A stretch of 36,807 bases of DNA, taken from positions 1-36,807 of the IMG/VR virus record IMGVR_UViG_3300044692_000005; one strand, 5' to 3'. Made by a program: the position numbers and the translations under genes. The notes beneath the pieces were generated by a model. It saw only the letters and a program-made list of their open reading frames with translations, did no database searches and was not told where the DNA came from. Each line of letters begins with the position of its first letter. The stretch's first letter is position 1. The stretch comes from a virus. Below are positions 4,953 through 35,942 of this stretch, piece by piece.

Positions 4953-5206
4953 GCGCGCCCAAACTCGAAGGCGATCCGCAGCAAGAAGAAGTCGAGTACG
5001 TCCTAGAACAGCCCGAGCCACTATCCCTATGGGATGACGGTTGCGTGATCTTCGACCCTCCGGCATTCGCAGAAAAGTACAACGCAGACGCCGCCCAAGT
5101 CAGGGGTGGTCAGTTGTTCATTCTGGACAAAGACACGCGCGAATGGTCGGCAGTAGAGCCGATCAAGAAAGAACGCAAACTGAAAGTTATCAAGGACAAG
5201 CAATGA
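4949..5206 (+). CDS. acidic small protein, unknown
   Basis: 85 residues, ATGA-coupled to the exonuclease and to the following gene. Acidic N-terminal half (QQEEVEYVLEQPEPLSLWDD) and basic C-terminus (KKERKLKVIKDK). No recognised domain. Confidence 0.6.
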   Translation: MSAPKLEGDPQQEEVEYVLEQPEPLSLWDDGCVIFDPPAFAEKYNADAAQVRGGQLFILDKDTREWSAVEPIKKERKLKVIKDKQ

Positions 5207-5553
5207 GCGTAATTAGCGACTTCCTGGGCCAGCTTAAGCAGACTCAGGCCGACCTTGTTGCATTTGCAGCTAGCCTCACGCAGCGTCAATGTGTCAATGG
5301 CGAAATCGCTTTCAAGCAGGGCAAGACATATACGCCAACCGTTGCCGACACTTATCAGCTCGTTAATGACGATCCTGACAAACGGCTGACGTCAGAGCAG
5401 GGGAAATATGCGGATCAGCTGCATTACGCATTAGGTCGATGCCTGACCGGCATTTGGCAGGAGCAGCGCAAGCTTGGCGTCAAGACGAATACGGGCGCTG
5501 AAATCTATGCTGCCGCCAACAGCGGCGACTACTCCAAGATTCGCGGCGCGTGA
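5203..5553 (+). CDS. helical phage protein, unknown
   Basis: 116 residues from the ATG at 5203, coupled to the previous gene by an ATGA overlap. The frame is open upstream to 5041, but those codons shadow the neighbour. Soluble, helical, no membrane segment; central KQGKTYTPTVADTYQLVND. It lies just before the holin-like gene. Function unknown. Confidence 0.6.
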   Translation: MSVISDFLGQLKQTQADLVAFAASLTQRQCVNGEIAFKQGKTYTPTVADTYQLVNDDPDKRLTSEQGKYADQLHYALGRCLTGIWQEQRKLGVKTNTGAEIYAAANSGDYSKIRGA

Positions 5554-5563
5554 AGTGCAAAGA

Positions 5564-5731
5564 GTGAATAACGCCGTTGGTGTTGACCTAATTCTCAGCG
5601 CGCCAGTCGCTACTCCTTATGTTCTGCCGCCAATCAACGTCATTGTCGATACCGTTGTCCATGTTCTCACGGGCTTGTACACGATAGTTCTAGCTATTCA
5701 TGTCATCCGGCAGTGGCGTAAGGACAAATAA
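5564..5731 (+). CDS. holin-like small membrane protein
   Basis: 55 residues from the GTG at 5564 (GTG 5555 is an alternative). One long hydrophobic segment (about residues 17-46, PPINVIVDTVVHVLTGLYTI) is followed by a short basic tail, RQWRKDK, as in single-pass holins or pinholins. Position just before the lysis genes and spanins supports a membrane-permeabilising role. Family assignment is inference. Confidence 0.55.
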   Translation: MNNAVGVDLILSAPVATPYVLPPINVIVDTVVHVLTGLYTIVLAIHVIRQWRKDK

Positions 5732-5750
5732 AAATACTGCGGAGTAAACC

Positions 5751-5867
5751 ATGGCTTTTTTGCTTGGCTTGGCCTGTGGCTTGGGTGTACCTGCCAAGCT
5801 TCGGGAAAAAGTGATTGCTGGCGCGAAATTGCTGCTGTCGAAAATTACACAGAAGAAATCATCGTGA
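5751..5867 (+). CDS. 38-residue cationic hydrophobic peptide in lysis module
   Basis: Small ORF with a good GCGGAG ribosome-binding site. The hydrophobic N-terminus MAFLLGLACGLGVP leads to an amphipathic Lys-rich helix ending KITQKKSS. Its TGA overlaps the GTG start of the next gene (GTGA), so the two are coupled. The context suggests a lysis accessory (antiholin or regulator) or a leader peptide for the next gene. Confidence 0.55.
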   Translation: MAFLLGLACGLGVPAKLREKVIAGAKLLLSKITQKKSS

Positions 5868-6520
5868 TCTTTACGCGCGGCGATAAGCTCAATAACCCTG
5901 GCAATATTGTCCACGGCGACCCGTGGCAGGGGCTTGCTGACGATCAACCTGACCCGAAGTTTGCTAAGTTCAAATCTCCCGTTTGGGGATTTCGCGCAAT
6001 GGCGGTCACGCTTGTTGCTTATCAAGATCGGCACAAGCTCAATACGATACGCGGCATCATTACACGTTGGGCGCCACCGACAGAAAACAATACGGCGGCA
6101 TATATCTATGCTGTCTCTAAAGAGACGGGATTTGGCGCGGACGATGCGCTTGACTTGCATAAGTACAGCGATGCCTACAAGGTCATCCGCGCGATCACGA
6201 TTCGCGAGCAGGGCGCTTTCGAGGGCGTTTATACCAAATCGCAGCTTGACGCCGGTTGCGTCAAAGCAGGATTAGAAGGCGCGCCAATTGGCGCGGTAGG
6301 AAGCTATGTAAAGACCGCTGCGGCCGCTGCGGCGGCGGCTTCGGCACATGCTGCTAGTGACCCTGGCGCATTGGCTAATGTCTATAGCACCGTCAAGCCC
6401 ATTGTCGATGTTGGCCCTGATTTCCTAAAGCATGCGTTTTGGTGGGTTGTCGCTATTGCCTTGTGCGGCCTTGCGCTCGGTGAGTTCGTGCAGTACAGGA
6501 ACAAGCAAGTTGCGGCTTAA
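5864..6520 (+). CDS. P5-type structural/lysis protein with C-terminal membrane anchor
   Basis: 218 residues from the GTG at 5864. The N-terminal LNNPGNI and the run WGFRAMAVTL...IITRWAPPTENNT match proteins usually annotated as phage structural protein P5, considered to be peptidoglycan-acting. An Ala-rich linker at about residues 147-162 is followed by a C-terminal transmembrane segment (WWVVAIALCGLALGEFV) with a basic tail. Lying between a holin-like gene and the spanins, it is the best candidate for the lytic enzyme. A C-terminal anchor is unusual for a soluble endolysin. Enzyme activity is inferred. Confidence 0.65.
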   Translation: MIFTRGDKLNNPGNIVHGDPWQGLADDQPDPKFAKFKSPVWGFRAMAVTLVAYQDRHKLNTIRGIITRWAPPTENNTAAYIYAVSKETGFGADDALDLHKYSDAYKVIRAITIREQGAFEGVYTKSQLDAGCVKAGLEGAPIGAVGSYVKTAAAAAAAASAHAASDPGALANVYSTVKPIVDVGPDFLKHAFWWVVAIALCGLALGEFVQYRNKQVAA

Positions 6521-6523
6521 AAC

Positions 6524-6601
6524 ATGAAAACTTTCGCCGAGATTGTGCGCTACGTGTTTAGTAAGCGTGATGCATTGATGCGGCGTTTGGCGCAATCGTG
6601 A
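6524..6601 (+). CDS. possible 25-residue peptide
   Basis: ATG three bases after the previous stop; encodes a basic amphipathic helix (FAEIVRYVFSKRDALMRRL). No clear ribosome-binding site. It fills most of the gap before the spanin genes. It may be a real micro-ORF or chance. Confidence 0.3.
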   Translation: MKTFAEIVRYVFSKRDALMRRLAQS

Positions 6602-6642
6602 TTCGAAACTTATAAAGCCGGATTAGCAAATTAAGGATAGCC

Positions 6643-6903
6643 ATGAACCTTCTCAAATCCGCATGGGGCTGGTTCAGCGGCACAACCCTTGGTAAGTACG
6701 CAGCTATTGCCGCTGGCGCGATTGCGCTGTTCTGCGCTGCTATGTGGAAAGCCTACAAGGCTGGCGCGGTAGAGCGCGCCAACGCGGAAGCGCAACAGAC
6801 TATCAAAGACGTCAGCGAGGCCAAGGACGTGCAGGCAAAGGTGGACAGCCTGCCGAGTGGGCGCGCGCAAAAGGAGTTGGCTGACAAATGGTCGAGAGAC
6901 TAA
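6643..6903 (+). CDS. i-spanin (Rz-like)
   Basis: 86 residues with an N-terminal transmembrane segment (about 17-35, LGKYAAIAAGAIALFCAAMW) followed by a helical periplasmic domain rich in Ala, Glu and Lys. The inner-membrane spanin subunit pairs with the outer-membrane lipoprotein to fuse envelopes at the last step of lysis. The start of the o-spanin gene lies inside its 3' end, the usual overlapping Rz/Rz1 arrangement. Confidence 0.75.
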   Translation: MNLLKSAWGWFSGTTLGKYAAIAAGAIALFCAAMWKAYKAGAVERANAEAQQTIKDVSEAKDVQAKVDSLPSGRAQKELADKWSRD

Positions 6904-7109
6904 AAGCGATCTTCCAGCATTGGCGCTGGCACATACTCATTTTGGGGTCTAGCGTACTCATTTTGGGGTGTTCCGCCAATCCTGTCCGCGACTACTGCGC
7001 GATCTCACAGCCGATTCGCCTCACGAAGGCCGAGATTGCTCAATTGAGCGATGAATCTGCAAAGCAAATCCTGGCTGCTAACGAAACGCGCGCCAGATTG
7101 TGCAAATGA
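6888..7109 (+). CDS. o-spanin lipoprotein (Rz1-like)
   Basis: 73 residues overlapping the i-spanin gene by 16 nt. Lipoprotein signal: basic N-terminus, hydrophobic stretch and lipobox LILGC with the lipidated Cys at residue 28. The mature part has CSANPVRDYCAISQPIRL and ends ANETRARLC, typical of Rz1-type subunits with a C-terminal Cys. Anchored in the outer membrane; partner of the i-spanin. Confidence 0.75.
   Translation: MVERLKAIFQHWRWHILILGSSVLILGCSANPVRDYCAISQPIRLTKAEIAQLSDESAKQILAANETRARLCK
6934..6969 (+). repeat. 15-bp direct repeat in the o-spanin signal peptide
   Basis: TACTCATTTTGGGGT occurs at 6934-6948 and 6955-6969, 21 nt apart, so the duplication is in frame (7 residues). It duplicates the LILG core of the signal peptide, and the second copy supplies the lipobox. 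Confidence 0.8.
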
Positions 7110-7165
7110 ATCTTTTCTGCTGGTCGGCGAGATATCGCCAACTCAAACTTTTGGAGCTGAAACTA

Positions 7166-7342
7166 ATGGCTGATCTGAACGCAAACCTGGCGCGTCTTGC
7201 CGCCTCTGTCGCTGTTCTCACGGAAGGCATCAGCAAGTTGCCGCCTCGTGTCGATGAAAGCGCTGCTGCGCAGGCCGTGTCTGATGCGGCTGACTCTGTA
7301 GATGCCGCCAATGCGGCTCTCGCGGCCTATGAAGCTAACTGA
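7166..7342 (+). CDS. Ala-rich short helical protein, unknown
   Basis: 58 residues from the ATG at 7166, with GGAG about 10 nt upstream. Ala-rich amphipathic helix with a Pro break (KLPPRVDE) in the middle. The frame is open upstream, but those codons overlap the o-spanin end. Function unknown; possibly a minor structural or lysis-timing protein. Confidence 0.55.
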   Translation: MADLNANLARLAASVAVLTEGISKLPPRVDESAAAQAVSDAADSVDAANAALAAYEAN

Positions 7343-7365
7343 TTTCCACACTACAGGTACTAACC

Positions 7366-7779
7366 ATGCCCATGCTTGATGCACAGCCTTGCCTTGGCTT
7401 TACTAAAGGCGCCAGCACCGCGAACGGCGACGTTTTCATCGATACCCCTGCAGGTTCCAAAGGCATTATCTTCGACAAGGTGACTTGGACGAATGCTTCG
7501 GCCAACCTCAGCACGTCCACGGCTACCTCCGGCCTCTACACGGCCGCTTCTGCGGGCGGCACGGCTATTGTCACGGCCGCGACTGGCAACCTGACTCCGC
7601 TGACCGCTGCGTCGAAATACAAAGACGGCACGATTGCCGCTAGCGCGGATGCGCTTACGATCTCTCAGCAGACGAGCGGCACGTATGCAGGCCGTACCGG
7701 CGTCTTCCTCAACTTTGGCGGCACAAACAACGTGCCGGCCACCGTTGACGTCTATCTGTATGGCCGCGTGTTGACGTAA
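7366..7779 (+). CDS. Ala/Thr-rich probable virion protein
   Basis: 137 residues, rich in Ala, Thr, Gly and Ser with alternating beta-strand character (GSKGIIFDKVTWTNASANLS), and no signal peptide or membrane segment. This composition suits a capsid decoration or head-surface protein. It sits just before the tRNA and the terminase genes. Family not recognised. Confidence 0.6.
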   Translation: MPMLDAQPCLGFTKGASTANGDVFIDTPAGSKGIIFDKVTWTNASANLSTSTATSGLYTAASAGGTAIVTAATGNLTPLTAASKYKDGTIAASADALTISQQTSGTYAGRTGVFLNFGGTNNVPATVDVYLYGRVLT

Positions 7780-7784
7780 TCCGC

Positions 7785-7859
7785 ATCTCGTTCGTTTAAC
7801 AGGCAGGACGGCGGTCTCCAAAACCGCTAATGGCGGTTCGAATCCGTCACGAGATGCCA
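7785..7859 (+). tRNA. tRNA-Trp (anticodon CCA)
   Basis: A full cloverleaf is visible. Acceptor ATCTCGT (7785-7791) pairs with ACGAGAT (7849-7855). The D-stem GTTT/GGAC pairs with G-U wobbles. The anticodon stem GCGGT/ACCGC encloses loop CTCCAAA with CCA at 7818-7820. The T-stem GGCGG/CCGTC has loop TTCGAAT. Discriminator G and an encoded CCA tail at 7857-7859. The variable loop is 4 nt. An A-U pair at position 1-72 and weak U-G pairs in the D-stem are unlike a typical housekeeping tRNA. Being co-oriented with the late genes, it is probably cut out of the late transcript. Confidence 0.85.
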
Positions 7860-7869
7860 ATAACCACGA

Positions 7870-7924
7870 GCGCGGCGTGTAATCCGCGCAATCATTCTTA
7901 TACCATCGGCCTCAAGTCCGGTGG
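7870..7924 (+). other. two hairpins between tRNA and next gene
   Basis: GCGCGG/CCGCGC (7870-7889, 8-nt loop) and CCATCGG/CCGGTGG (7903-7924, 8-nt loop, one G-U) lie between the tRNA and the gene at 7943. They could protect the processed 3' transcript or control the next gene. No T-arm is present, so this is not a second tRNA. Confidence 0.35.
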
Positions 7925-7942
7925 TTTAACTCAGGAACACAC

Positions 7943-8347
7943 ATGGCAGGTCCAGCACCTTTTGTCATCGCATCCAATTCGCCGCAGACAATCGAGGTTC
8001 CGACGAGCCTTGGGCTGAACTACACGCTGGCGAGTGCCGGAACCGTCACGCCCGATATTGGCAATCAGAACTGCCGTGGATTGGTTGTCTTCATCAACCT
8101 GACGGGCGGCAGCACGCCATCGCTGACCGTCACGGTGCAGGGCAAAGACCCGGTAAGCGGGCAGTACTATACGATCCTAGCCTCGGCAGCGATTACGTCA
8201 AATGGATTGACGGCGCTGCGTATCTATCCAGGCATTCCAGCTGCGGCCAATAGCACAGCAAACGACGTTCTGCCGAGCCAATGGCGTATTAGCGCGGCGA
8301 TTACCGGCACTGTAACCGCAACGGTTAGCTCAGTCTTGCTCCCCTAA
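7943..8347 (+). CDS. beta-rich probable virion protein
   Basis: 134 residues, dominated by short beta-strands (GLVVFINLTGGSTPSLTVTVQ, YYTILASAAI, TVTATVSSVLLP), as in phage head-decoration or fibre-base proteins with a jelly-roll/Ig-like fold. No signal peptide. It lies between the tRNA and the small terminase. Specific role unknown. Confidence 0.6.
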   Translation: MAGPAPFVIASNSPQTIEVPTSLGLNYTLASAGTVTPDIGNQNCRGLVVFINLTGGSTPSLTVTVQGKDPVSGQYYTILASAAITSNGLTALRIYPGIPAAANSTANDVLPSQWRISAAITGTVTATVSSVLLP

Positions 8348-8367
8348 ACAATGGCTGTGATAGGCCC

Positions 8368-8679
8368 ATGAAGTTTCAGAAAGGCCAAGGAGGCCGACCC
8401 AAGGGCGCTACCAATGTTGCGACCAGAGAAATCAAACAAGCATTCCACGAAGCGTTCTTTGAGCGCGGTGGTGTCAAGGCACTTCTTAAGTGGGCTGACG
8501 AGAACCCCACCGACTTTTACCGGCTGGCGGCAAGGCTGATTCCTGTCGAATTGGCCGGAACCATTGCGCACACGCACAAGGCCGCGCAGGACATGACGGA
8601 TGACGAACTCGCCCGTATTGCCGCAGGAAGCGGCCAGCGAGCTATTGCGCAGGCGTCAAGCGCGCAGACACTTAATTGA
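8368..8679 (+). CDS. terS: small terminase subunit-like protein
   Basis: 103 residues directly upstream of, and overlapping by 80 nt, the large terminase gene. The N-terminal FQKGQGGRPKGATNVATREIK is a common DNA-binding start in small terminase-type proteins, and the helix GGVKALLKWADENPTDFYRL is typical of the family. Recognises the packaging site for the large subunit. No strong ribosome-binding site is seen. Confidence 0.7.
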   Translation: MKFQKGQGGRPKGATNVATREIKQAFHEAFFERGGVKALLKWADENPTDFYRLAARLIPVELAGTIAHTHKAAQDMTDDELARIAAGSGQRAIAQASSAQTLN

Positions 8680-10030
8680 CTTCACGCAATACACGCTGCC
8701 GAAGTTCCAGGTAGGCGCGCACCACCGAATCATCGCTGACGCGCTCGAATCCGTAGAGCGCGGCGAATGCGATCGATTGATGATCTTCGCGCCGCCGAGG
8801 CATACGAAGTCGGAGTTAGCGAGCAGGCGATTCCCGGCATGGTATCTCGGCAGACATCCGGACAGGCAGATTATCACCACAACCTATGCTGGTGAGTTTG
8901 CGCAAGACTTCGGTCGCGATGTTCGCTCAATCGTGGATAGCAGCGAGTATCGCGCTCTGTTTGATGTGCGATTGGCAGCTGACTCTGCTGCTCGTGGCCG
9001 GTGGCATACCGATGCTGGCGGCGTATATTTCGCTGTTGGTGTGGGCGGTCCTATCACGGGACGCGGCGCACATCTTGCCCTCATCGACGATCCGGTTAAG
9101 AACCGTCAGGACGCCGAATCGCAGGTAATCCGCGATCAAGTTTGGCACTGGTACACATCCACACTGCGCACGCGATTGATGCCGGGAGGTGCGATTGTCC
9201 TTATTTGCACAAGATGGCATGAAGACGATTTGGCGGGCCGACTCCTCAATCGAGCGGCTAACGGCGGCGAACAGTGGCGCGTTGTTAATTTGCCTGCGGT
9301 CAGACAAGACGGGACTGCTCTCTGGCCTGAATGGTACCCAATCACCGAACTGGACCGAGTTAAGTCCAGCCTCGGACCGCGCGATTGGCTAAGCCTCTAT
9401 CAGCAAACGCCCACCGCTGAAACCGGCACATATTTCCAAAGGGAATGGTTCAAGAGGTACACGGATGCGCCGAAAGAACTCAACGTCTACATTTCAGGTG
9501 ATTTTGCGGTCACGGCCGACGAAGGAGACTTCACGGAGTTGGCTGTTTGGGGGATCGACAGTCGCGACAATGTCTATGCCATCGATTGGTGGTCTGGCCG
9601 TACTACATCAGATGTCTGGATCGACATGCTCCTGGGATTTGCCGCGCGCTATGCGCCGATTCATTTCGTCGGAGAGACGGGACCGATCCGCAGAGCCATT
9701 GAGCCCCTTCTTGAACGCCGCATGAGGGAAACCGGCAGCTGGATTACTCCAGTCTGGCTAACTGCCAACGCCGACAAAGCCTCAACCGCACGAACGTTCC
9801 AGGGCATCGCAGCGCAAGGCCGAGTTCATTTCCCGCACACAGACTGGGCTGAGCGCGTCTTAGATCAGCTTCTCCGTTTCCCAGGCGGTCGATATGACGA
9901 CGCCGTAGACGCCTGTTCGTTGCTTGGACGACACCTTGCGCAGACGTGGGCCGCGCGACCGACACCTGCGCCCGTCGCGCACAACTGGAATGCACCGATA
10001 ACCATTGGACAAATGCTGAAGCGTGGCTAA
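8600..10030 (+). CDS. terL: large terminase subunit
   Basis: 476 residues. The ATPase domain has a Walker A variant, APPRHTKS, at 64-71, Walker B LALIDD at 159-164 and coupling motif CTRW near 203. The RNase H-like nuclease domain has acidic residues Asp301 (ISGDFA), Glu359 (FVGETG) and the Asp433/434/437 cluster (YDDAVDAC). Packages DNA into the prohead and cuts it. The early start at 8600 gives an 80-nt overlap with terS; a somewhat later start is possible. Confidence 0.95.
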   Translation: MTNSPVLPQEAASELLRRRQARRHLIDFTQYTLPKFQVGAHHRIIADALESVERGECDRLMIFAPPRHTKSELASRRFPAWYLGRHPDRQIITTTYAGEFAQDFGRDVRSIVDSSEYRALFDVRLAADSAARGRWHTDAGGVYFAVGVGGPITGRGAHLALIDDPVKNRQDAESQVIRDQVWHWYTSTLRTRLMPGGAIVLICTRWHEDDLAGRLLNRAANGGEQWRVVNLPAVRQDGTALWPEWYPITELDRVKSSLGPRDWLSLYQQTPTAETGTYFQREWFKRYTDAPKELNVYISGDFAVTADEGDFTELAVWGIDSRDNVYAIDWWSGRTTSDVWIDMLLGFAARYAPIHFVGETGPIRRAIEPLLERRMRETGSWITPVWLTANADKASTARTFQGIAAQGRVHFPHTDWAERVLDQLLRFPGGRYDDAVDACSLLGRHLAQTWAARPTPAPVAHNWNAPITIGQMLKRG

Positions 10031-12149
10031 GACCGACGACAACAAGCGCGACAAGTGGCTCAAACGCCTGTCGGATGAAGACAAAGCGCACGCAGAATGG
10101 CGTAAGCGCGCCAAGGAAGCGGATAAGGCGTATTGCAACTATGAGGGCGGCGCCGATCCGCCCAAGGCGCCCTTGTTCCCGGCGACGATCAACATCATTC
10201 ACGGGAAGATTTATGCTCAGCCGCCGAAACCCGACGTTCGCAAGCGCCATCAGAGCGGCGCATATAGTGCGCAGAGTCCTGCCGTTTCGTCCCAACCTGC
10301 GGCGACGCCTGTACAACCGCAAGCTGTGGGTCAACAACTTCCCGGACCTGCACCAGTCGCAGCGGGAGCTGGTGCGAATCCTGCGCAGGCAGCCCAATCC
10401 AGCCCGGCAATGGGCATGGCGCCACCGCCTGTCGCAGACCCCATAGCCGACGAAAATATCATCGCCCTGGCGATTGAGGGCTGCCTCAAATACATCATCG
10501 ACAGCACGCTGTTTGCCGACGACGGCCATGCTGCGGTCAACGATTTCCTCGTCACTGGCCTGGGCGATGCCAAGGTCGAGATGGAAACGCGTGTTGAGGC
10601 CGAGCCGATCATTAATCCGGCCACCGGCAACGTCATCACCGACCCTGAAACGGGCGAAACACTGACCAAGGACGTAATCACCTTCCAGACGCTGCATCTG
10701 CGGCATTTCTCCTATTCGCAATTCCGGTGGGAGCCTGCGAAGGATTGGCGCCGCTGCAGCTGGGTTGCCTTCGACCATTATCTGACCAAAGACGAGATTG
10801 AGGCCAAGTTTGGTGTTGATCTTGATCCCAAGGGCGATAAATCGACTGAGGGCGATAGCAATCAGCGCGAAAACGGCCAGGCGACCGGCACATCGCCGCC
10901 GCAGATGGACAAGTACGAAGGCGTCTATACCGTTCATGAGATTTGGGACAAGCGCAAGCGTGAGCGGCTGTTCGTCACAGACGCTTATGACGATGTTCTT
11001 TTAGAAGAAGACGATCCGCTAGAGCTGGAAGACTTCTTCCCCTGCCCGCGCCCGATGATGGCGCTGCAGAATGGCCGCGAGATGGTGCCATGCCCGGAAT
11101 ACTGGCAATGCGCGCACCTGTTCGATCAACTCACCGAGATCGCGGATCGTATCTGGCACATCACGCGCCAGATCAAGGATATCGGGTTCTACGATGACTC
11201 TTTCGTAGACCTGCAAAAGCTCAATCTGTACGAAGACGGCGCGATCATCCCCGTCAAGAATCTGCTGGATAAGCTGCGCTCCGTTGACGGCAAGGCCACC
11301 GCAGAAAGCGTGCTGTTCCAGGTGGACATGGGCTCAAAGGTCAACGTCCTGACCGAGCTACTTCAGCAGTATGCGACCGTCAAGCAGCGCATTGACGAAT
11401 GGTGGGGCATCGCCGATATCGAGCAGGGCACATCGAACCCTGAAGAAACGGCGACCGCGCAGACGATCAAGGACAACTGGGCCAATATCCGCACCGGCCA
11501 GCGCGTGCAGAAGGTCGCCATGTTCTTCCGCGATGTATTACGCATCATGGCAGAACTCATCGCTAACAAGTTCGACGCGGCGCAGATCAAGGCCATGTGC
11601 GGCATTGCGCTTTCGGAAGAGCAGCTCGAACTCATGCGCTCGGATTTGGCGCGCGAATATGTGATTGATGTGCAGTCCGACTCTACGATGTTGGAGAACG
11701 ACGCGCAGGACGTGCAGGATTTGACTCAGTTCATGGGCGCTTTCACGCCATGGTTGCGTGAAATGCTGCCTGCCGTTAAGCAGGGCATTTTGCCTGCTGA
11801 TCTCGCCAAAGAGATCACGTCCCTATTTATCGATACGTATAAGCCTGGGCGCAATTTGCAGCAGGCCATCGAAGCACTGCCGAGTACGCTGGATCAGATC
11901 AACCAGCTCACGATGTCGCTCCAGCAGGCTCAGCAGCAGGCCCAGCAGGCCCAGCAGCAGTTACAGCAATACCAGGCCGGCGAGGAGGCGCGCAAGAACG
12001 CGCAGACGCAGGCTGATGTCGCCAAGAAACAGGTGGATACCGAGGCCGCTGCGCAGAAGTTGCAGCCTGACGCGATCAAGGCTGCCGCCGAGGCTTCGCA
12101 GGCAAGCCGCCAGGACATCATCGACGGGGCAATGACAGGGATTCACTAA
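10023..12149 (+). CDS. portal protein (P22-like podovirus type)
   Basis: 708 residues from the GTG at 10023, overlapping the terminase stop. Size and order (directly after terL) fit the P22 gp1-like portal group. Recognisable segments include the N-terminal helical domain (AEWRKRAKEADKAYCNYEGG), the clip/stem region around EIADRIWHITRQIKDIG and NPEETATAQTIKDNWANI, and a long Gln-rich C-terminal coiled coil (barrel). A Pro/Ala/Gln-rich stretch at about residues 78-140 interrupts the N-terminal domain. Dodecameric DNA channel at the head vertex. Confidence 0.85.
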   Translation: MAKTDDNKRDKWLKRLSDEDKAHAEWRKRAKEADKAYCNYEGGADPPKAPLFPATINIIHGKIYAQPPKPDVRKRHQSGAYSAQSPAVSSQPAATPVQPQAVGQQLPGPAPVAAGAGANPAQAAQSSPAMGMAPPPVADPIADENIIALAIEGCLKYIIDSTLFADDGHAAVNDFLVTGLGDAKVEMETRVEAEPIINPATGNVITDPETGETLTKDVITFQTLHLRHFSYSQFRWEPAKDWRRCSWVAFDHYLTKDEIEAKFGVDLDPKGDKSTEGDSNQRENGQATGTSPPQMDKYEGVYTVHEIWDKRKRERLFVTDAYDDVLLEEDDPLELEDFFPCPRPMMALQNGREMVPCPEYWQCAHLFDQLTEIADRIWHITRQIKDIGFYDDSFVDLQKLNLYEDGAIIPVKNLLDKLRSVDGKATAESVLFQVDMGSKVNVLTELLQQYATVKQRIDEWWGIADIEQGTSNPEETATAQTIKDNWANIRTGQRVQKVAMFFRDVLRIMAELIANKFDAAQIKAMCGIALSEEQLELMRSDLAREYVIDVQSDSTMLENDAQDVQDLTQFMGAFTPWLREMLPAVKQGILPADLAKEITSLFIDTYKPGRNLQQAIEALPSTLDQINQLTMSLQQAQQQAQQAQQQLQQYQAGEEARKNAQTQADVAKKQVDTEAAAQKLQPDAIKAAAEASQASRQDIIDGAMTGIH

Positions 12150-26020: not shown

Positions 26021-26245
26021 ATGGTCCGGTACTTCAAGCGCGCCCCTAGAATCCCGCCTGCCAAATGTCCAGCGTGCGGGAAATACTGTTGGTTCCCGAC
26101 TGCGCAAGATGGCCTATGCTTCTGGTGCAAGGAGGCTCACTTCGTTCATCGCAGCGAATGGGAGTGGTCGGACTGCGCCTGTAAGGGTGACGATCCGTAC
26201 TGCAAGGCGTGTTGGGGGAGCGGGGTGGTCGGAACCCTGTGCTAG
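26021..26245 (+). CDS. small zinc-binding protein next to attP
   Basis: 74 residues. Cys-rich: CPACGKYCWF, CFWC, then CACKGDDPYCKACWGSG, the last resembling half of a DnaJ-type CxxCxGxG zinc centre. It lies between the late terminator and the attachment site, with no clear ribosome-binding site, so it may have its own promoter and be expressed in the prophage. The left arm-type site begins inside its last codons. Function unknown. Confidence 0.55.
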   Translation: MVRYFKRAPRIPPAKCPACGKYCWFPTAQDGLCFWCKEAHFVHRSEWEWSDCACKGDDPYCKACWGSGVVGTLC

Positions 26246-26310
26246 TTGTGCTAGTGAGGGGTCAAATAGCACGACAAAATGCGGTGCTTTCAATATGCAC
26301 AATGCTTAAT

Positions 26311-26323
26311 AATCAATAGCTTA
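26311..26323 (+). promoter_or_regulatory. IHF binding site
   Basis: AATCAATAGCTTA matches the IHF consensus WATCAANNNNTTR at every defined position. Located between left arm sites and core, in an AT-rich stretch, as expected for bending attP DNA. Confidence 0.75.
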
Positions 26324-26339: not shown

Positions 26340-26378
26340 TTAGGAGGGGGACGCTCTATCCAACTGAGCTACGGGGCC
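26340..26378 (-). other. 5' half of tRNA-Arg(CCT), att core
   Basis: On the minus strand, from 26378 leftward, the bases read as acceptor GGCCCCG, TA, D-arm GCTC/GAGC, G, anticodon 5' strand TCCCC and loop CTCCTAA with anticodon CCT. After the loop the sequence should be GGGGA but is AATTC, so the tRNA likeness stops at the end of the anticodon loop. The first tRNA base (26378) is also the last base of the int stop codon. Not a functional tRNA gene by itself. Confidence 0.8.
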
Positions 26379-27367
26379 TATGCGGTTTTCCGGCGTTTTC
26401 TTGGTTTGGCTGTGCTAGTTTTTGTGCTAGTCCAGCGCGCAAGTGTGCTAATCGCATCTCGCCCAAACCCGGGGGCGTGATGGGCGTAACGTTCCGTTAC
26501 CGTAATAGAGCTATGCCCAGCCAAACGCTTGACCTCGTGCAAGGATACACCGGACTGCACAAGCGCCGTACAGAACGTGTGACGCAGCCAGTGCAGCGTT
26601 CCTCGCTCGGTCTCTGCTGAGAACCAGTCACTAAGTGTGTCAGGGTGCACGTCTACCAGCTTGTCCTTGCCTAGCTTCTTCAGTGCCCGATTTGCCGCCG
26701 GGTTAAGCGGTATCGCGCGCCATCGCGCATTCTTGGTTCTCCCCTCGGGCAACGACTCAACATAGAGCATCTTGTCGCGCACGTCCTGCCTGCGCGCCTT
26801 CGCCATCTCGCCGCGCCTGATCCCCGTATTCCACATGAACTGCCAAATAGCTCCGTGTTCCGCGCGGGCCAGCTTACGTAATTGATTAGGTTGAAAATAT
26901 TCTGGCGCGCGGCTGGTTACTGACTTTGGGATCGTCACGCCATCCATCGGAGAGTGCTTTATGCGGCGCTGAGATAGGGCACGTCGAAAGGCGGCCCTCG
27001 CGAGCTTCAATGCTTTCTCTGCTTGGCCTAGCGCCTTTTCCTGAGATACCCAGCGCTCTATGGAGCTGGGGTGCAAGCCTTCTGCTGATTCGTCATCGAA
27101 TCGCGCTCTGAATCGTTTTAGCGCGCTGTGGGCGCGCTTATAGGTAGTAGGCCTGGCCTTCTCGTACCATTCTTCGTAATCTTTGAGAATAGAGCCGACC
27201 GTTACACCACGCGTGGGTGTAATCAGCCCGCGCAGTTCTGCAATCTTTTCAGTAAGACGGCTTTCCGCTTCTCGCTTCTCAACCTTCCCAAGAGACGTTC
27301 GGAACTGCTGTCCGCCATCGTACCAGTTGAGGTAATAGGCGTCGCCGCGTTTGTAGAGCGTTGCCAC
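26378..27367 (-). CDS. int: tyrosine recombinase integrase
   Basis: 329 residues. N-terminal arm-binding domain (TLYKRGDAYYLNWYDGGQQF), core-binding domain at about 52-140, and a catalytic domain with Arg184, Lys212, His259-x2-Arg262 (HWLRHTF), His285 (LAGHSS) and the nucleophile Tyr294 (TERYAHHAP). A basic tail follows (TSTKTSTAKPRKRRKTA); its TST/TSTA codons coincide with two arm-type sites. The stop codon abuts the att core. Transcribed toward attP. The start overlaps the upstream xis gene by 145 nt. Confidence 0.95.
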   Translation of the reverse strand: MATLYKRGDAYYLNWYDGGQQFRTSLGKVEKREAESRLTEKIAELRGLITPTRGVTVGSILKDYEEWYEKARPTTYKRAHSALKRFRARFDDESAEGLHPSSIERWVSQEKALGQAEKALKLARAAFRRALSQRRIKHSPMDGVTIPKSVTSRAPEYFQPNQLRKLARAEHGAIWQFMWNTGIRRGEMAKARRQDVRDKMLYVESLPEGRTKNARWRAIPLNPAANRALKKLGKDKLVDVHPDTLSDWFSAETERGTLHWLRHTFCTALVQSGVSLHEVKRLAGHSSITVTERYAHHAPGFGRDAISTLARWTSTKTSTAKPRKRRKTA

Positions 27368-27522
27368 TCTCTCCCCTCAATCGCAAGGTCAATGTCGTTC
27401 TTATTGTAGACCTTTCTGCCGCCCGAGTTCCTCGCGCGAAGCCTCATTTTGCGGAATGCCGTCAGCTTGCAACGGGCGTATTCCGCCGCCTCCTTCTCAA
27501 GTAGCCAGGGAGAATCGCTCAT
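27223..27522 (-). CDS. xis: excisionase-type HTH protein
   Basis: 99 residues. The N-terminal half is a MerR/AlpA-like winged helix (SPWLLEKEAAEYARCKLTAF, then GGRKVYNKNDIDLAIEG) typical of phage excisionases, which bend DNA and direct Int to excise. The C-terminal ~48 residues overlap the 5' end of int in another frame and are low in structure. Directly upstream of int, as in lambda. Confidence 0.75.
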   Translation of the reverse strand: MSDSPWLLEKEAAEYARCKLTAFRKMRLRARNSGGRKVYNKNDIDLAIEGREWQRSTNAATPITSTGTMADSSSERLLGRLRSEKRKAVLLKRLQNCAG

Positions 27523-28177: not shown

Positions 28178-28193
28178 GCCACATCTCCTTCCG

Positions 28194-28237
28194 TTAGTAA
28201 CGCCACATCATCACTCCTGAAGATTTTCGCGCTTCAT
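28194..28237 (-). repeat. boundary repeat B (minus orientation)
   Basis: On the minus strand reads ATGAAGCGCGAAA, a middle with CAGGAG, then GTGGCGTTACTAA, followed by CGGAAGGAGATG and the start of the A/B gene. The extension CGGAAGGAGATG is shared with repeat I. Confidence 0.8.
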
Positions 28238-33024: not shown

Positions 33025-33084
33025 TCAATGGGAAAAGCGCGAACATCCGAGATTTTGGGAACGTGGCGTTGCTAAGTCGCTCAT
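33025..33084 (-). CDS. 19-residue ORF reading through repeat G
   Basis: ATG at 33084 overlaps the TGA of the cassette gene (ATGA). Translates repeat G as SDLATPRSQNLGCSRFSH. The LATPR start matches peptides encoded by repeats A and J. Possibly a relay to the DUF551 gene. Confidence 0.35.
   Translation of the reverse strand: MSDLATPRSQNLGCSRFSH
33032..33076 (+). repeat. boundary repeat G (plus orientation)
   Basis: AAAGCGCGAAC, ATCCGAGATTTTGGGAAC, GTGGCGTTGCTAAG, directly after the G/F gene. The middle is identical to repeat I on the other strand nearly 2.9 kb away. Confidence 0.85.
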
Positions 33085-35881: not shown

Positions 35882-35897
35882 GCTGCATCTCCTTCCG

Positions 35898-35942
35898 TTA
35901 GTAACGCCACGTTCCCAAAATCTCGGATGTTCGCGCTTCTCA
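35898..35942 (-). repeat. boundary repeat I (minus orientation)
   Basis: Minus strand GTGAGAAGCGCGAAC, ATCCGAGATTTTGGGAAC, GTGGCGTTACTAA, followed by CGGAAGGAGATG as in repeat B. Lies exactly between the upstream stop and the H/I gene. Confidence 0.85.

Follow-up and report, generated by a model that had tools for sequence, protein, structure and literature searches.

The 5′ half of tRNA-Arg(CCT) as the probable attachment core of a Lysobacterales phage whose integrase gene abuts the tRNA sequence

Phages that integrate into tRNA genes usually bring the 3′ half of the tRNA and leave the host promoter in place, and this rule is often explained as a necessity. The phage analyzed here carries half of a tRNA gene directly behind its integrase gene (int), and the half is the 5′ one. 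The locus raises the question of whether this sequence is an attachment site, and of what becomes of the host tRNA and its promoter when it is used. We consider it very probable that attP supplies nucleotides 1 to 39 of tRNA-Arg(CCT), and that integration rebuilds the tRNA behind int and, because those nucleotides come from the phage, strands the host promoter.

The window, by which we mean the whole analyzed stretch, is an IMG/VR record of 36,807 bp without a terminal repeat. Terminase, portal, and other structural genes lie on its plus strand, and the integrase gene lies on the minus strand. The leftward early region contains a 41-bp inverted repeat (98%; 33035-33075 and 35898-35938) and an exact 25-bp direct repeat (28182-28206 and 35886-35910). 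The only complete tRNA of the window is tRNA-Trp(CCA), at 7785-7859.

The reverse complement of the core (Table 1), GGCCCCGTAGCTCAGTTGGATAGAGCGTCCCCCTCCTAA, is the same sequence as nucleotides 1-39 of the tRNA-Arg(CCT) gene in Lysobacterales. The first-pass annotation had proposed a 5′ half of this tRNA, and ARAGORN and Rfam reported no complete tRNA at this position. The likeness breaks right after the last base of the 7-nt anticodon loop, where the annotation had placed the break. After nucleotide 39 the phage reads AATTCAGG where the host genes read GGGGAAGG, and AATT stands in place of the 3′ core-binding strand GGGG of the tRNA. The shared base between int and the tRNA, also described at first reading, is borne out as well: the stop codon TAG occupies 26380-26378, and its G doubles as tRNA nucleotide 1.

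Table 1. Features around the half tRNA, in window coordinates.
Feature	Position	Strand	Basis
att core, 5′ half (nt 1-39) of tRNA-Arg(CCT)	26340..26378	-	sequence match to host genes
CTCCTAA, anticodon loop; inferred strand-exchange (overlap) region	26340..26346	-	identity blocks of lysogens
Tyrosine integrase, 329 aa	26378..27367	-	Pfam PF00589 7.4e-19; PHROG integrase 2.2e-48
Small ORF, probable excisionase/HTH protein, overlaps int start	27223..27522	-	similarity to M. sediminis HTH_17 ORF
Putative arm-type sites ACTAGCACA x2, within int 3′ end	26411-26419, 26423-26431	-	repeats and spacing
Putative arm-type sites ACTAGCACA x2, beyond core	26238-26246, 26247-26255	-	repeats and spacing
IHF-consensus match AATCAATAGCTTA, between core and distal arm	26311..26323	+	consensus match

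The surroundings of the half tRNA resemble those of a phage attachment site. Four of the five matches to the 9-bp repeat ACTAGCACA in the window flank it, against 0.14 expected by chance in the whole 36.8 kb. The distal pair lies about 90 bp past the core; within each pair the spacing is 12 bp next to int and 9 bp beyond the core. This spacing recurs in a prophage of Mizugakiibacter sediminis, whose arm repeat is GGCACAG, with pairs 12 bp (int side) and 9 bp (other side) apart and the distal pair at about +125/+134 from tRNA nucleotide 1. The adjoining IHF-consensus match is the only one in the window and is weak alone, with 0.9 expected; on reading the sequences, we saw similar matches alongside the att sites of relatives. 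The small ORF overlapping the start of int has no family match of its own, and the M. sediminis HTH_17 ORF occupies the same place relative to int. From these sequence features, we read the half tRNA as the true attP and not as a stray fragment. Since int stands on one side of it and phage sequence on the other, it is an attP and not a prophage junction.

An exact scan for the 39-mer in 84,980 bacterial and archaeal species genomes gave six matches, all in Lysobacterales. Four were intact tRNA-Arg(CCT) genes, and two, in Pseudoxanthomonas broegbernensis and M. sediminis, were interrupted after the loop. As part of the same very probable reading, the half tRNA would be the attP of a temperate Lysobacterales phage that recombines with the anticodon loop of tRNA-Arg(CCT). 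The first-pass annotation had named identity extending into the 3′ half of attB, or integration at another locus, as results that would speak against it. Neither occurred, and attB matches only through nucleotide 39.

In P. broegbernensis DSM 12573 (L038, approximately 4985-10713), a 5.7-kb island bounded by CCCCTCCTAAGG splits the tRNA-Arg(CCT) gene without rebuilding it. No integrase was seen in the island, which contains the Hachiman genes HamA (9181-10008) and HamB (7022-9184) and its own complete tRNA-Arg(CCT) (10427-10503; 86% identical). By analogy, this defence island appears to resemble tRNA-dependent integration.

The M. sediminis prophage, whose integrase is 58% identical to that of the present phage over its full length, presents the integrated state. 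On L036, int (5156-6145) is followed by a complete hybrid tRNA-Arg(CCT) (6146-6222), which follows the int stop codon without a gap, and then by a host aldehyde dehydrogenase gene. On a second contig, the host upstream region and a tRNA 5′ half run into phage lysis genes, so that the host promoter stays at this stub end, in front of a 5′ half that is dead. The hybrid has C16 and the stub T16, and the two 5′ halves are accordingly separate copies. In a congener (G456), the only other Mizugakiibacter genome compared, the same host flanks adjoin around an intact tRNA-Arg(CCT), with matches of 697 bp at 83% upstream of the stub and 906 bp at 89% downstream of the hybrid. The M. sediminis genome is a draft in which the prophage is split across two contigs, and we considered whether stub and hybrid pairs could be assembly chimeras. 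The joined flanks of the congener and the recurrence of such pairs in several genomes argue against this, and the pairs stand on single contigs in G272, G769, G461, and G567. The separation of the host 3′ half from its own promoter, foreseen at first reading, is thus seen in natural lysogens of relatives, with the host 5′ half and promoter stranded at the far prophage end.

We infer that the present phage integrates likewise. Int would exchange strands at the anticodon loop, with the flanking anticodon stem serving as the near-symmetric core that is usual for integrase sites. The phage 5′ half, on the int side, would join the host 3′ half to give a complete tRNA, the last element of an xis-int-tRNA strand, and the opposite end of the prophage would keep the host promoter and host 5′ half as a stub. 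The hybrid would be transcribed by readthrough from int or from a promoter inside int, and RNase P would trim its precursor at the int stop codon.

We also collected relatives of the integrase. Nucleotide searches of a phage collection gave no whole-phage relatives, tblastn of int against phages gave only distant integrases (27-36% among the matches listed), and the exact 36-nt core had no match in viral contigs. A first int scan of viral contigs returned distant or partial matches only, and an alignment query gave useful ones. Together, the Lysobacterales and viral-contig searches yielded about 30 integrases of the family. In a sample of 369 genomes from across the class, the query genome was the only one with a member.

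Carriers of the 5′ half comprise eight lysogens and four free attPs. In each of the lysogens (G002, G272, G305, G769, G461, G567, G379, and G288), one end holds a complete tRNA and the opposite end a 5′ stub, and the free attPs are those of the present phage, L150, L151, and L160. Carriers of the 3′ half form a nested clade of 12. Five of them pair a complete tRNA with a 3′ stub (G225, G219, G428, G746, and G750), two were counted on weaker 3′ fragment matches (G743 and G755), four were scored only from a complete or 3′ tRNA beside int (G135, G754, G679, and G733), and one (G222) is at a secondary site. G382, G045, and G267, with no tRNA core beside int, were left unscored; L152/L153 have a related int and no tRNA half directly downstream, and L158/L159 served only as the outgroup.

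Some members show further peculiarities. In G222 (L048/L054, L090), the family integrase is at a non-tRNA site, the 3′ half is at the end away from int, and an intact tRNA-Arg(CCT) is located elsewhere in the genome. G288 (L083/L094) and G272 (L092) look as if elements had inserted in tandem at one tRNA. In G288 and the viral contig L150, the 5′ half is across the core from int.

The stretches of identity shared by the two ends of each element locate the crossover. In 5′ carriers the block usually starts exactly at tRNA nucleotide 1, and in 3′ carriers it extends through the CCA end. Across eight 5′-type and four 3′-type lysogens, the only common overlap is CCC-CTCCTAA, and for this reason we place strand exchange at the anticodon loop. 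In a tree of the 30 integrases, the carried half switches once (branch support 96/95; mean about 8.5 when shuffled), and the 3′ clade branches from within the 5′ carriers. The orientation of the tRNA with respect to int changes three times. The polarity of the tree comes from outgroup rooting and parsimony, and its deepest fork (G272) is weakly supported. With this polarity, 5′-half carriage is probably ancestral in the family, and the 3′-half branch arose later.

Rebuilt behind int, the tRNA is cut off from its own promoter. We scored sigma-70-like sites with approximate E. coli matrices. The promoter-like TTGGCT-17-CACAAT precedes the M. sediminis stub (score 7.5) and is conserved before the intact gene of the congener, but it is absent before the hybrid. 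The distance from the int stop codon to tRNA nucleotide 1 is -1 nt in the present phage, 0 in M. sediminis, and +8 in G567; in G461, G379, L154-L156, and L160 it is -23, the final 23 nt of int being shared with the tRNA 5′ half. Overlapping int genes (L040, L056, L154-L156, L160) end in RPRSS(V/A)G-stop, with the TAG within the D-loop sequence GGATAG. Gaps of -23 to +8 nt give no space for a separate promoter outside int, which makes readthrough from int the most economical way to obtain the tRNA. Judged from these sequences, the hybrid tRNA likely depends on int transcription. The first-pass annotation had suggested checking for another tRNA-Arg(CCT) gene in the host; of the 42 tRNAs found in the M. 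sediminis draft, none but the hybrid has the anticodon CCT. Decoding of AGG need not rest wholly on the hybrid, because the genome also has tRNA-Arg(TCT), which could serve as a backup.

On the other hand, the same topology could hold while the hybrid has its own promoter in the int 3′ end or the P′ arm, in which case the tRNA supply would be independent of int transcription. We regard this as a real, though somewhat disfavored, alternative. Upstream of the hybrid in L155, TTGGCA-16-AAAAAT scores 11.2, and a site in L160 scores 6.9; with these moderate promoter-like sites, a promoter within int is possible, particularly in these two. Gaps of about 55-75 nt between int and the tRNA in G272, G305, and L151 also favor it, and the gap is about 570 nt in G769. 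However, the best score upstream of the tRNA is 0.1 in the present phage and 4.6, with a poor -10, in M. sediminis, so neither has a convincing site, and in both the tRNA follows int with essentially no gap.

The overlap of int with the tRNA also suggests a simple route by which integration could shut off the integrase. Integration might turn the int mRNA into a tRNA precursor, and the hybrid might then act both as the CCT tRNA of the cell and as an off switch for Int; we hold this to be unlikely. Before integration, the half tRNA would be no substrate for RNase P, and Int would be made. After integration, cleavage at tRNA nucleotide 1 would strip the int stop codon of its final base in the present phage, and int of its last seven codons plus the stop in G461, G379, L154-L156, and L160. 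The cut, non-stop mRNA would be destroyed. In attR transcripts, the predicted pairing of the acceptor stem is 0.76-1.0; in attP transcripts, it is not properly formed because half of the stem is missing. Thus, RNase P should have a substrate only once the phage has integrated, and the cut should fall at or within the end of the int frame. We found nothing in the literature on RNase P together with int or attP.

Compared with these readings, it is quite improbable that the 39 nt are a relic of a site used by an ancestor, with the present phage no longer using it or being lytic. We found no lysogen of this exact phage, and the change of the 3′ core-binding strand from GGGG to AATT would fit such decay. 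However, int is intact with all conserved blocks, the arm sites are perfect repeats, and in three lysogen lineages (G769, G567, and G379) the identity block ends exactly at the 3′ edge of the loop, as it does in the present phage. Phages can encode tRNA-like decoys, but it is hardly credible that the half tRNA is such a decoy or a regulatory RNA, since its position between arm sites, an identity block ending at the overlap, and the hybrid and stub pairs of relatives explain it fully.

The reading in which attP supplies the 5′ half can now be set beside known systems. Like other anticodon-loop-targeting tyrosine-recombinase phages, this phage encodes a tyrosine recombinase domain beside attP, has attP/attB identity spanning the 7-nt loop, and has putative arm-type sites flanking the core. 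The 3′-half phages of the family (G225, G219, G428, G746, G750, and others) share a homologous integrase, the tRNA-Arg(CCT) target, and the same anticodon-loop core, but they bring the 3′ half and the host promoter stays. At one tRNA gene, a single homologous family thus has both 5′ and 3′ carriers, separated by one well-supported change, so that it becomes possible to test why a given half is carried and what follows from it.

The first-pass annotation was right that most phages carry the 3′ part, and departures from this are on record: Islander (Hudson, Lau and Williams, PMC4383910) found a 5′ fragment in 159 of 3919 islands, about 4%. That class likewise has a tyrosine integrase, a tRNA gene target, an anticodon-loop crossover, a rebuilt tRNA, and a displaced 5′ fragment, and a complete tRNA and a 5′ fragment stand at opposite ends in our eight related lysogens. 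Promoters are not mentioned in that work, and here the arrangement characterizes one family of phage integrases whose genes adjoin the tRNA or overlap it.

Archaeal pTN3-like integrases (Cossu et al., PMC5495485; PMC8371274) also have an attP with the tRNA 5′ half, and the promoter of the integrase is reported to drive their rebuilt tRNA, which stands apart from its own promoter. The M. sediminis hybrid is likewise downstream of int and apart from the host promoter. In the archaeal elements, however, int is disrupted by integration, whereas here it stays whole just upstream of the tRNA, with a complete ORF in M. sediminis, G461, and G567. In bacteria, 5′-half carriage is seldom met (review PMC8371274).

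In the established tRNA-dependent lysogeny of actinobacteriophages (Guerrero-Bustamante and Hatfull, PMC10865867), integration also occurs at a host tRNA gene and the lysogen relies on tRNA information supplied by the phage, but there the core is short, the tRNA is restored at neither junction, and a complete isoacceptor tRNA gene on the phage compensates. Here, one junction rebuilds it; the hybrid is complete in relatives, and the only complete tRNA of the window is for tryptophan. In summary, the 5′-half arrangement is real and rare in bacteria, and it would link a host translation gene to prophage transcription. Relative to these known systems, what is new is a bacterial phage family where 5′ carriage predominates, a single mapped change of the carried half, 5′ or 3′, at one and the same tRNA, and int genes with the stop codon abutting or inside the tRNA.
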